This document shows positions 3,004-5,893 of a DNA stretch of 5,893 nucleotides, piece by piece (positions within the stretch are counted from its first letter, which is position 1; each line of letters starts with the position of its first letter). A program made the position numbers and the translations under genes. The notes beneath the pieces are model-generated. The model was not told the origin of the DNA, searched no databases, and saw only the letters and a program-made list of their open reading frames with translations. The DNA is from Nitrospirae bacterium CG2_30_53_67 (GTDB taxonomy: Bacteria > CG2-30-53-67), in contig MNYV01000183.1 in assembly GCA_001873285.1 (NCBI GenBank), positions 1 through 5,893 on the forward strand, read 5' to 3'.

Positions 3004-3276
3004 TGCTTATCTCTCTTCCAAAATGTGAAGCGGACCTTTTAGAAAACAAAAGGATAAAATGACATCGCCACGACAATCCTTTTATTTTATTACTTAATCT
3101 TTTCCATAAGTTACTATACCTTATCGGCATAAGTCAACGTATTTCTATCATCGGATGATTTTTGTATTTTATTGGATCGGATTTCCATGTATGATCATGG
3201 CTGTCTCCGGGCATTCGACAGAGAGGGTATTTTCGATATGGAAAGGGGTTTTTCTTTATATTAGAGGAGAGAAGGG
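3004..3276. promoter_or_regulatory. Divergent intergenic region with several palindromes
   Basis: This spacer must hold the promoters for both the membrane protein operon (leftward) and the DUF366-queE operon (rightward). I see no convincing -35/-10 pair in either direction. It holds AAAAGGAT/ATCCTTTT arms (3048-3055 and 3076-3083), a 13-base palindrome ATCATC-G-GATGAT (3147-3159) followed by TTTTTGTATTTT, and CCATG/CATGG (3185-3189 and 3196-3200). None matches a regulator site I know. I looked for a preQ1 riboswitch ahead of the DUF366-queE operon and did not find its conserved core. Confidence 0.4.
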
Positions 3277-3834
3277 ATGATCTGCAGGCTGATTGAACAG
3301 GAGATTCCTTATACGGGGAGGGAGCTTGCCTCCCATTGGGCGTTCAGGTCTTTTGGCCTTTTAGGGGACAGCATGGTGGCCTTTGCAGGCCCTTGTGACG
3401 TCGGTACCGACCGGATGGCGGATCTCGTGGATGTCAAAGCAGATGCGCCGATATGGAGCGAACGGATGCTGCACTTTATCGTGGAGCATTTCGGGTGCGG
3501 GCTCGAGACGGCGATCCTCCGGCAGAGGCTCCTGATCTGTATCATTCAGGAGATCCTCAACGGCGGATTCAAGGCGCAGATCATCCGGCGCAAGGGGGAT
3601 GACCTGTACGAAGGGGATGCAAAGCTTTCGGTTTCCATTGCCGTGCAAAGCCCGGTTTCCTGCATGATTCACGTGGGTCTCAACATCGAAAGCCGGGGGA
3701 CCCCTGTAAAGACCATGGGTCTGAACGATCTTGGCGTGGAGCCGAGGGCCCTGGCCAAGGACGTGATGGCCGGGTATCTCGATGAGTTAGAAGGGATGAC
3801 GGAGGCGCGCTGCAAGGTGCGTGGAGTACCCTGA
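3277..3834 (+). CDS. DUF366 family protein, probably linked to 7-deazaguanine metabolism
   Basis: This 185-residue soluble protein matches my recollection of the DUF366 family, found in archaea and scattered bacteria, with no established reaction that I know of. Conserved-looking blocks are FAGPCDVGTDRMADLVDVKA (36-55), SERMLHFIVEHF (61-72), QRLLICIIQEIL (83-94), RRKGDDLYEGDAKLSVSIA (104-122) and SPVSCMIHVGLNIESRGTPV (125-144). The R-x-x-G-D-D-L...K-L-S-x-S-x-A pattern resembles by eye the substrate-gripping strand of biotin and lipoate ligases, so an adenylate- or ligand-binding fold is possible. The ribosome site AGAGGAG (3263-3269) lies seven bases before the ATG. Its stop overlaps the queE start by one base (TGATG), so the two are translationally coupled and DUF366 plausibly handles a substrate, product or partner of QueE. 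That role is inference from context. Confidence 0.8.
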   Translation: MICRLIEQEIPYTGRELASHWAFRSFGLLGDSMVAFAGPCDVGTDRMADLVDVKADAPIWSERMLHFIVEHFGCGLETAILRQRLLICIIQEILNGGFKAQIIRRKGDDLYEGDAKLSVSIAVQSPVSCMIHVGLNIESRGTPVKTMGLNDLGVEPRALAKDVMAGYLDELEGMTEARCKVRGVP

Positions 3835-4580
3835 TGGATGCTGCGGCTGAGATCATGGAGATATTCTCCTCGATTCAGGGTGAGGGACCGCTGGTGGGGG
3901 AGCGCCAGCTCTTTGTCCGGTTCTACGGCTGTAACCGTGCCTGTCAATACTGTGATACGGAGGCGTCCAAAGGTCCGGTCAGAGACTGCCTGATTGAAAA
4001 AACGCCGGGGCGCAGGGATTTTACCGCACGCCCCAACCCCCTGAGTGCGGAAGAACTCATCCGGATCATCCGGGACGCCGTGAGACACCGACACCTGCAT
4101 CAGTCTCTGGTATTGACCGGCGGGGAACCCCTGCTCCATGCCGGATTTCTGTCCGCTCTGCTTCCGGCCGTAATCCGTGAGATCCCGGTTCTCCTGGAGA
4201 CCAACGGTCTTTTGTATCATGAACTCGGAGAGATCCTGCCGTGGGTGGAGACCATCTCCATGGATGTCAAGCTCGCCTCGGCCACGGGCGAGGCCGAGGA
4301 CTGGGAATCACACCGGCTCTTTCTGGACTTGGCGAAGACCAGGAAACTCTATATCAAGGCGGTGCTGACACCCCGTGTGACCGATGAGGAGATCCGTCTT
4401 CTATCCGATCTGATCGAGAAGGCCGATCCCGGGATCCCCCTGATCCTTCAGCCGGTGCACGGCGCCGAGGCTGATCCGGAATGGACCCGCCGCCTGCTCG
4501 ACATTCAAGGCGCGTGCAAGGAGCGCCTCCGGAGCGTCCGTATCATCCCTCAGATTCATCAGGCGCTGAATATGCTTTGA
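3834..4580 (+). CDS. queE: 7-carboxy-7-deazaguanine synthase QueE (radical SAM)
   Basis: QueE converts 6-carboxy-5,6,7,8-tetrahydropterin to 7-carboxy-7-deazaguanine, the ring-contraction step toward preQ0 and queuosine, using S-adenosylmethionine, a 4Fe-4S cluster and magnesium in the cytoplasm. The 248-residue protein opens with the family signature IMEIFSSIQGEGPLVGERQLFVRFYGC (7-33). The cluster-binding cysteines are Cys33, Cys37 and Cys40 in CNRACQYCDT (C-x3-C-x2-C). SAM-binding follows in LVLTGGEPLL (92-101) and LETNG (121-125), then SMDVKL (142-147), LILQPV (203-208) and the C-terminal RIIPQIHQAL (236-245). It is somewhat longer than the E. coli enzyme, with about 50 residues between the cluster loop and TGGEP. 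GGAG at 3823-3826 supports the ATG at 3834; an in-frame ATG seven codons later is an alternative. Other pathway genes (queC, queD, folE) are not in the window. Confidence 0.93.
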   Translation: MDAAAEIMEIFSSIQGEGPLVGERQLFVRFYGCNRACQYCDTEASKGPVRDCLIEKTPGRRDFTARPNPLSAEELIRIIRDAVRHRHLHQSLVLTGGEPLLHAGFLSALLPAVIREIPVLLETNGLLYHELGEILPWVETISMDVKLASATGEAEDWESHRLFLDLAKTRKLYIKAVLTPRVTDEEIRLLSDLIEKADPGIPLILQPVHGAEADPEWTRRLLDIQGACKERLRSVRIIPQIHQALNML

Positions 4581-4599: not shown

Positions 4600-5893
4600 A
4601 TGACCCATCAAGAAAAGATTGCATCAAACGGATACGGCATTTTCGGGTTTATGCATCAATACGTTGTACTGATTGTGGCGGCTTGTCTGGGGATCGCCCT
4701 CTCTTTGTTTCTGTTCAACACTTCACGGACGTGGGAAAACAAAAAGATACAGGCGGAGTTTGAGAGGATTGCTGCGGACCATATCTCCGCTTTCAGAAAA
4801 ACCATTCAAATCAATTTGCACGAGCTTGATGCGCTCCACGCCTTTTATCTCGGTTCTGAAAAGGTTGAACGGTTGGAATTCAGGAAGTTTGCCGAGCACA
4901 TGATGGTGGAAAATCCATCCGTGCAGGCGCTGGAGTGGATTCCTCGTGTTCTCCAAAAGGAGCGGATCGTCTTTGAAGAGACGGCGCGAAGAGAGGGGTT
5001 CCAGGATTTCGAAATCAGCGAGATCAATGCGGCAGGCAAGCGGGTCAGGGCGGGCCGACGGGACGAGTATTTCCCCGTCTATTTTCTGGAACCTCTGAAG
5101 GGAAACGAGCGCGTCCTGGGGTTTGATGCCGCCACAAGGCCCGCTAGGCTTGAGGCCATGAACCTGGCTGCCGACACCGGAAAGACCGCAGCCACCAGAA
5201 GAATTCATCTCGTACAGATAAAAGAGGAAGAGTCCGCTATCCGGGTATTTCACCCGGTCTTCCGCAAAGATGCTGAGGTTGATACCGTGGAATTCAGGCG
5301 CGCAAATCTTTCGGGTTTTGTAGCGGGAGTTTATCGGGTCGGGGATATGCTGAAAAACAGCCTGATATTTTCCCATCCTCAGGGGATTGATATTTACCTT
5401 TACGACGACTCCGCCCCTGCAGACGAACGACTTCTATATTTCCATGCCTTTCGGACAAGGAAGGAATCCGTGCAGCCCGTTACAGATGAGACTCAGCTCA
5501 AATCAGGGATCTACTACGAGGAGCGCTTTGATGTGGCAGGCAGAACATGGCGGATGCTTTGCCGGACCACACCGGATTATGTCCATGCCGCAAGAACCTG
5601 GGAGCCCTGGGGGATCCTTGCGGCCGGGTTGATGTTTACGGCCATGATTTGCGGTTATCTCCTGATCAACCTGGTCCGGATGAACCAGATTAAAGGTCAT
5701 GTCGAAGCGCTCAACAAAGCGAAAAAAGAACTGGAGCATGAGATCATCGAGCGCAAAGAGGCGGAAGAGGTCTTGAGGGAGAGCGAGGAACGGTTCCGGC
5801 AGTTGACCGAGGCCGCCTTTGATGGGATTGCTCTCTCTGAAGAAGGAAGGCTTTTAAAGGTCAATGAGTCCTTTGCCGCGATGTTCGGTTACG
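4600..5893 (+). CDS. CHASE-PAS membrane sensor protein, 3' end cut by window edge
   Basis: An open frame of 431 codons runs off the right edge. It starts MTHQEKIASN at an ATG preceded by an AAAGGA ribosome site. Order of parts: membrane segment 1 (about 21-40, YVVLIVAACLGIALSLFLFN); an extracytoplasmic CHASE domain (about 75-300) with ALEWIPRVLQKER (110-122), REGFQDFEISEI (131-142), RRDEYFPVYFLEPLKGNE (153-170), VLGFDAATRPARLEAM (172-187) and HPVFRKDA (218-225); membrane segment 2 (about 337-358); a coiled coil (362-393, EALNKAKKELEHEIIERKEA); and the beginning of a PAS domain (ESEERFRQLTEAAFDGIALS, 394-413). CHASE domains sense small extracellular ligands. The output domain is outside the window; a histidine kinase or a GGDEF/EAL enzyme is most likely. 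Only 19 bases separate it from queE, so read-through is probable, though a shared function is not implied. Confidence 0.88.
   Translation, partial: MTHQEKIASNGYGIFGFMHQYVVLIVAACLGIALSLFLFNTSRTWENKKIQAEFERIAADHISAFRKTIQINLHELDALHAFYLGSEKVERLEFRKFAEHMMVENPSVQALEWIPRVLQKERIVFEETARREGFQDFEISEINAAGKRVRAGRRDEYFPVYFLEPLKGNERVLGFDAATRPARLEAMNLAADTGKTAATRRIHLVQIKEEESAIRVFHPVFRKDAEVDTVEFRRANLSGFVAGVYRVGDMLKNSLIFSHPQGIDIYLYDDSAPADERLLYFHAFRTRKESVQPVTDETQLKSGIYYEERFDVAGRTWRMLCRTTPDYVHAARTWEPWGILAAGLMFTAMICGYLLINLVRMNQIKGHVEALNKAKKELEHEIIERKEAEEVLRESEERFRQLTEAAFDGIALSEEGRLLKVNESFAAMFGY

Follow-up and report, generated by a model that had tools for sequence, protein, structure and literature searches.

What does a DUF366 protein do beside an enzyme of 7-deazaguanine synthesis? 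The question arises from contig MNYV01000183.1 of Nitrospirae bacterium CG2_30_53_67, of which a stretch of 5,893 nucleotides (referred to here as the window) was analyzed, and in which the stop codon of a DUF366 gene overlaps the start codon of queE. QueE makes 7-carboxy-7-deazaguanine (CDG), and QueC consumes CDG via an acyl-adenylate and the amide ADG. The product, 7-cyano-7-deazaguanine (preQ0), is the precursor common to queuosine and archaeosine. The preQ0 pathway, which also feeds the synthesis of DNA-protecting 7-deazaguanines, is considered fully accounted for by four enzymes.

DUF366 is very probably an unrecognized enzyme of this pathway, because it has a ligase-like fold and is found in the preQ0 operons of many unrelated microbes, beside a variant QueC. 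The probability that it belongs to the pathway is put at about 0.93. The Pfam family, one structure, and the preQ0 pathway itself were already known; the connection between them, the fold with its Asp/Lys pair, and the QueC subtype are new. A literature search returned no paper naming the family as DUF366 (whole word), PF04017, or COG2029, and hits to 2DDZ were unrelated. The search likewise returned no paper with a connection between DUF366 and the pathway, the Asp/Lys fold assignment, or the link to a QueC subtype. To our knowledge, the biotin/lipoate-ligase fold has never before been linked to the preQ0 pathway.

The DUF366-queE junction

The DUF366 gene (positions 3277 to 3834, forward strand) encodes 185 amino acids and is preceded by the ribosome-binding sequence AGGAG (3265 to 3269, forward), read from the sequence 7 nt before the ATG. 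Its stop codon TGA (3832 to 3834) and the ATG of queE (3834 to 3836) have base 3834 in common, forming the TGATG (3832 to 3836, forward) on which the first-pass annotation had based its claim of coupling. That annotation also placed one strong ribosome site at the head of the operon. The AGGAG is there, but “one” is not strictly true because queE has a possible site of its own, GGAG (3823 to 3826, forward), located 7 nt before its ATG within the end of DUF366. The same GGAG doubles as codons for the conserved C-terminal Gly-Val of DUF366. Four related genomes conserve the one-base overlap, as either TGATG or TAATG, and the spacing between DUF366 and queE is close to zero in most Bacillota loci. 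No terminator-like site was found between the two genes, and the single terminator-like match within queE (3890 to 3909) is no more than shuffled sequence yields. A CHASE-PAS sensor gene starts on the same strand 19 bases downstream of queE (4600 to 5893, forward).

The queE gene (3834 to 4580, forward) encodes a radical SAM protein of 248 amino acids (Radical_SAM, 48.3 bits). The best PDB matches of a profile of its group are three solved QueE enzymes, 5tgs (E value of 8.8e-18), 6nhl, and 4njg, and the radical SAM CxxxCxxC cysteines (C33, C37, and C40) are invariant in the group. The window protein nevertheless falls below the NCBIfam equivalog cut-offs (best, 59.8 versus 260.1 bits). Because its nearest PDB relatives are QueE enzymes, yet its score lies far under those cut-offs, it is, judging by sequence, a divergent QueE of a subfamily outside the NCBIfam models.

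DUF366 has a biotin/lipoate-ligase fold

The window protein matches PF04017 with 217.8 bits (cut-off, 29.9) over positions 1 to 184 of 184. An AlphaFold model built from an alignment of 48 family members has a mean pLDDT of 93.9 and a pTM of 0.90. The nearest solved structure is 2ddz, a Pyrococcus horikoshii protein of unknown function (Foldseek E value of 2.5e-21; VIA-align Z score of 28.4, 1.5 Å, and 39% identity across 183 residues). This is itself a DUF366 protein with the same fold but is known from its structure alone, and searches gave it neither a function nor a ligand nor a paper. Its gene is presumably PH0223, and 2ddz may already be classed with biotin synthetases in fold databases. 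PH0223 appears once in the literature, apparently among self-interacting proteins in a list (PMC1414084).

After 2ddz, Foldseek ranks LplA and biotin protein ligases (BPL), with E values of 1e-7 to 1e-5 (1.2e-7 for the LplA structure 2ars). In VIA-align, the DUF366 model aligns with P. horikoshii BPL over nearly its whole length (Z score of 13.4, 157 residues, 2.9 Å), with LipB (Z score of 13.1), and with LplA (Z score of 12.2). The comparison of a predicted structure with the biotin/lipoate ligase fold, proposed in the first-pass annotation, thus gives a confident match to all three enzymes.

The earlier guess by eye that the R..GDDL....KLS block resembles the ligand-gripping strand of biotin and lipoate ligases is borne out by the fold and by profile matches. 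The block is a strand-loop-strand element at codons 106 to 120 (3592 to 3636, forward; KGDDLYEGDAKLSVS). A family profile made from sequence only reaches Aquifex BPL (E value of 0.001), with RkGdDlfveekkLs aligned with KWPNDVYFQEKKVS, and D109 and K116 fall on the BPL Asp and Lys at equal spacing. Comparison of the family with Escherichia coli BirA by hhalign aligns the same block with BirA VKWPNDLYLQDRKLAG, placing D109 on D176 and K116 on K183, with an E value of 0.0077 for a single comparison and a probability of only 5%. The catalytic Lys is K183 in BirA and K133 in LplA, and the BPL Asp lies seven residues before it. D109 and K116 are invariant in all 131 DUF366 sequences, as are Y12, G14, R105, G107, S120, S128, H132, and N136. 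The extended R..GDDL....KLS.S.A block is also similar to the strand block of LplA, but the DUF366 and LplA sequence profiles do not join (E value of 0.12), and neither BLAST nor hhalign gave a usable alignment.

Several features set DUF366 apart from BPL. Val or Ile replaces the Gly of KxxG, and conservation does not extend to the GRGRRGR adenylate-binding loop of BirA: in this weakly aligned stretch only G14 is invariant, position 17 is Leu or Ile where BirA has R118, and position 20 is mostly His. In addition, the 185-residue protein leaves no room for the C-terminal domain, and its gene neighbors are que genes rather than genes for acceptor proteins. Because the fold and the Asp/Lys pair are kept and the GRGRRGR loop is not, DUF366 is a relative of the biotin/lipoate ligases but probably not itself a biotin or lipoate ligase, and its gene context argues against a role in attaching either cofactor to acceptor domains.

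DUF366 genes lie in preQ0 operons of distant lineages

A pattern scan of GTDB genomes provided, as its best matches, 80 DUF366 loci with flanks of up to 10 kb; more than half come from one cyanobacterial sister group. Neighboring genes were predicted and clustered before any were named, and the top clusters were then identified from sequence. The top neighbors are QueD at −2, QueC at −1, QueE at +1, and FolE at +2, and queC immediately upstream is the commonest. At least one que gene is present on the same strand within 2.5 kb in 60 of the 80 loci. By lineage, such linkage is found in 4/4 Nitrospirae-like loci (queE), 3/3 Deltaproteobacteria, 8/9 Firmicutes (all four genes), and 42/43 Gastranaerophilales (queC), and in 1/10 Thermococci, 0/6 Vampirovibrio-type, and 0/2 Planctomycetota loci. 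All 21 Bacillota loci examined have queE adjoining DUF366, and 16 have the order queD-queC-DUF366-queE-folE.

The adjacency of DUF366 and queE is therefore not due to chance, and the que neighborhoods bear out the earlier proposal that DUF366 is a member of the 7-deazaguanine pathway. Scatter away from que genes, named at the outset as an outcome that would refute this, is not seen overall but does occur in Thermococci, Vampirovibrionales, and Planctomycetota. The same operons dispose of the suggestion that DUF366 performs a QueD-like early step: substitution for QueD or FolE is rejected because queD and folE share operons with DUF366 and the genome of the window has its own QueD.

A gene for a HEAT-repeat protein directly precedes queC-DUF366 in 42 Gastranaerophilales loci. 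In Thermococci, a gene for an MDP-1-type HAD phosphatase usually lies just upstream of DUF366, and in one Thermococcus-type genome (G238; L178, 1489 to 2535) the two form an in-frame fusion of 348 amino acids. A long DUF366 frame in a second genome (G082) proved to be merely an upstream extension overlapping queC and not a fusion. In five Thermococci, a provisional motif for archaeal arcS had no match within ~19 kb of DUF366.

Protein searches with the window protein gave no match on viral contigs, and DUF366 had no match on plasmids. DUF366 was found in a single phage record, MW495066 (“Microcystis phage MaAM05”), which has the appearance of a misfiled bacterial contig because DUF366 is surrounded there by SecDF, GlyS, FliM, OmpA, and other bacterial genes. 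A viral origin of DUF366 was rejected on these grounds.

Co-occurrence of DUF366 with QueC

The CG2_30_53_67 genome is a 2.36-Mb draft, 95% complete, with one DUF366 gene; queD and queC are adjacent to each other on a different contig, and queA is on a third. DUF366 is present in six of eight genomes examined from the same phylum and in 74 of 99 genomes of the Thermococcus phylum. In one genome of the same genus as CG2_30_53_67 (G003, C54:7497-8036), a premature TAA occurs near the end of the DUF366 frame and QueC was not detected, a combination suggestive of joint decay or of an assembly error. Absences of genes are soft evidence throughout, because many of the genomes are metagenome assemblies.

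Among 159 Bacillota genomes drawn evenly across the phylum, 22 have DUF366 above the cut-off. QueC is found in all 22 of these, versus 23 of the 137 without DUF366 (Fisher test, 8e-15, kinship ignored).

A variant QueC travels with DUF366

The signature of QueC comprises SGGxDS, YxQxHxxE, VPxRN, YPDC, and a zinc motif, according to a 2026 study in which Y131 of YPDC was essential and Phe at this position gave partial activity (PMC13329287). In QueC and the related Cap9, the Tyr stacks against the deazaguanine, whose Watson-Crick edge is read by the Asp (PMC13279940). The 88 QueCs counted in DUF366 genomes all have F-x-D-N in place of YPDC and have lost the His of YxQxHxxE. These proteins (referred to here as Asn-type) come from bacteria and Thermococci, most of them from Gastranaerophilales, and include QueCs encoded far from DUF366 and that of the window genome. 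They keep SGGxDS and VPxRN (all 88 having the R and N of the latter) and score 172 to 186 bits against PF06508.

YPDC is found in the QueCs of eight Bacillota and eight archaea of the Thermococcus phylum that lack DUF366, and in those of 14 further Bacillota without it. Within the Bacillota, all 18 Asn-type QueCs occur in DUF366 genomes (Fisher test, 1.4e-8, kinship ignored). A first tree unites the Asn-type QueCs as a single clade (support, 0.73); in a second tree, the clade encloses just an odd FPDQ paralog besides. That paralog is the sole QueC of a genome without DUF366 (G112); another odd paralog reads FPDT (G068), and both genomes also have QueF. Distances in the QueC and DUF366 trees are correlated across 75 loci (r = 0.87), although shared ancestry contributes. 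Seven Thermococci, some possibly incomplete, have an Asn-type QueC without a DUF366 match, and four DUF366-containing Bacillota (G046, G088, G089, and G126) have lost the operon queC, so that their only QueC is of the YPDC type and is encoded elsewhere.

The GAT-QueC proteins, archaeal and phage archaeosine synthases, offer a comparison. Their QueC domain likewise has Asn for the Cys of YPDC, with W in WVPxRN, and the domains of phages Vid5, PH669, and JG054 read YPDN and EWVPARN; these were placed beside the Asn clade, with negligible support (0.109). Unlike DUF366 operons, GAT-QueC carries a fused glutamine amidotransferase domain, and no DUF366 was seen beside GAT-QueC in the phages examined. 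Asn at the Cys position and the Trp of WVPARN may mark QueCs that cooperate with a second domain or protein. Asn at this position does not alone abolish preQ0 synthesis, because GAT-QueC of phage 9g appears able to yield preQ0 when the E. coli host has had its queC deleted (PMC6884629).

Possible role of DUF366 in CDG activation

Compared with the canonical pathway (e.g., Bacillus subtilis queCDEF), DUF366 operons share FolE, QueD, QueE, and QueC but have an extra protein of BPL fold, an Asn-type QueC, and a divergent QueE, and QueF is often absent. BPL and LplA enzymes convert a carboxylate and ATP to an acyl-AMP and then to an amide. DUF366 may therefore act in CDG activation or amide formation, because its gene lies between queC and queE, it has a ligase fold with the Asp/Lys pair, and its partner QueC has lost the Cys and His. 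The first half of the QueC reaction matches carboxylate activation of the BPL/LplA type (PMC13329287, PMC13279940).

DUF366 would on this reading be a dedicated component of the route from GTP to preQ0 and the partner of the Asn-type QueC subfamily. It would bind CDG and ATP, activate the carboxylate as CDG-adenylate through the Asp109/Lys116 pair, and hand the activated CDG on for amide formation, after which the Asn-type QueC would finish preQ0 by forming the nitrile. GAT-QueC would be a parallel case, in which the fused amidotransferase serves as partner of an Asn-type QueC. That DUF366 acts on CDG together with Asn-type QueC, probably by activating the CDG carboxylate, is a tentative proposal with somewhat less than an even chance of being correct. 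Among the three roles offered in the first-pass annotation, “handler of 7-carboxy-7-deazaguanine” is nonetheless the best supported, and “downstream ligase” is a less well supported candidate. A still more speculative version is a two-enzyme route in which DUF366 both activates and amidates CDG and the Asn-type QueC makes only the nitrile; such a route might be an ancient alternative spread over archaea and several bacterial phyla. DUF366 does not merely mend a defect of Asn-type QueC, because the four Bacillota with only a YPDC QueC keep it. The degenerate adenylate loop, the seven Thermococci with Asn-type QueC alone, and the DUF366 genes located away from que genes in Thermococci, Vampirovibrionales, and Planctomycetota count against CDG activation. 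So do these four Bacillota, the apparent preQ0 synthesis by phage 9g GAT-QueC, and the origin of most of the 88 QueCs in a single group.

If this proposal is true, the pathway exists in a second form that has escaped notice, with a fifth conserved protein that is present in genetically tractable archaea, among others. The solved structure 2ddz would gain a concrete substrate hypothesis, and caution would be needed with QueC annotations, which would span two functionally different groups.

Alternative roles

The degenerate adenylate loop is also what would be expected if DUF366 were a noncatalytic subunit, scaffold, or chaperone of Asn-type QueC that binds CDG or preQ0, and the tight gene coupling and codivergence with QueC fit such a protein equally. 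However, strict conservation of D109, K116, and several polar residues in the 131 sequences resembles that of a catalytic site, making a purely structural role rather unlikely.

An enzyme with this fold and an Asp/Lys pair like that of lysine-modifying ligases could instead join CDG, or some other deazaguanine acid, to a lysine of a protein, an N terminus, or a carrier, either for channeling to QueC or as a modification of proteins in its own right. Related joining of CDG to protein exists in Cap9 (PMC13279940), which, like QatC, is a phage-defense protein. Cap9 activates CDG with ATP, as proposed for DUF366, but has the QueC (PP-loop) fold and uses a protein N terminus as acceptor. The neighbors that recur across lineages are que enzymes, with no acceptor protein among them, and no lipoyl- or biotinyl-type acceptor domain was seen; both versions of this ligase are unlikely.

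The distribution of QueF raises the possibility that DUF366 belongs to a route replacing QueF, by which preQ1 is reached without the known nitrile reductase. QueA, which requires preQ1-tRNA, is present in 156 of the 159 Bacillota genomes, and among the 45 with QueC, QueF is above the cut-off in 1 of 22 with DUF366 versus 15 of 23 without it (Fisher test, 2e-5, kinship ignored). A family-by-family search did not find QueF in the window genome, and it is absent from that genome's whole family, in which QueA is present; the four Bacillota with DUF366 and only a canonical QueC also lack QueF. Outside that Bacillota group, however, the 29 genomes tested that have both DUF366 and QueA divide into 15 without and 14 with QueF. 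Furthermore, five DUF366-containing Thermococci tested lack both QueF and QueA, and Thermococci make archaeosine, for which preQ1 is not needed. Eight Bacillota with canonical QueC and QueA have neither QueF nor DUF366, so the absence of QueF must have another cause there, whether a different preQ1 route or salvage; preQ1 salvage would account for QueA without QueF. The DUF366 fold also differs from the T-fold of QueF, and we know of no nitrile reductase chemistry in the biotin-ligase fold. Substitution for QueF as a general role of DUF366 was rejected because the two are complementary in Bacillota only, and participation in a QueF-replacing route is improbable. The pattern nevertheless points to bacteria that seemingly make queuosine without QueF.

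Service outside the preQ0 pathway (in pterin/folate metabolism or a phosphatase-linked process of archaea), with DUF366 drawn into que operons through shared FolE and QueD, would fit the conserved and once-fused HAD phosphatase partner in Thermococci but is very improbable, as queC, which has no pterin role, is alone the commonest neighbor (42/43 Gastranaerophilales loci) and the QueC subtype follows DUF366 even where the genes lie apart.

Other genes in the window

Upstream of DUF366, the window carries two toxin loci. A gene for a Phd/YefM-type antitoxin is followed, with a four-base overlap, by one for a ParE/RelE-like toxin (554 to 1170, forward); this is an ordinary type II toxin-antitoxin pair. 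On the reverse strand (1423 to 2002), a PIN-domain toxin gene (1423 to 1818) has a small upstream gene (1808 to 2002) in the place of an antitoxin.
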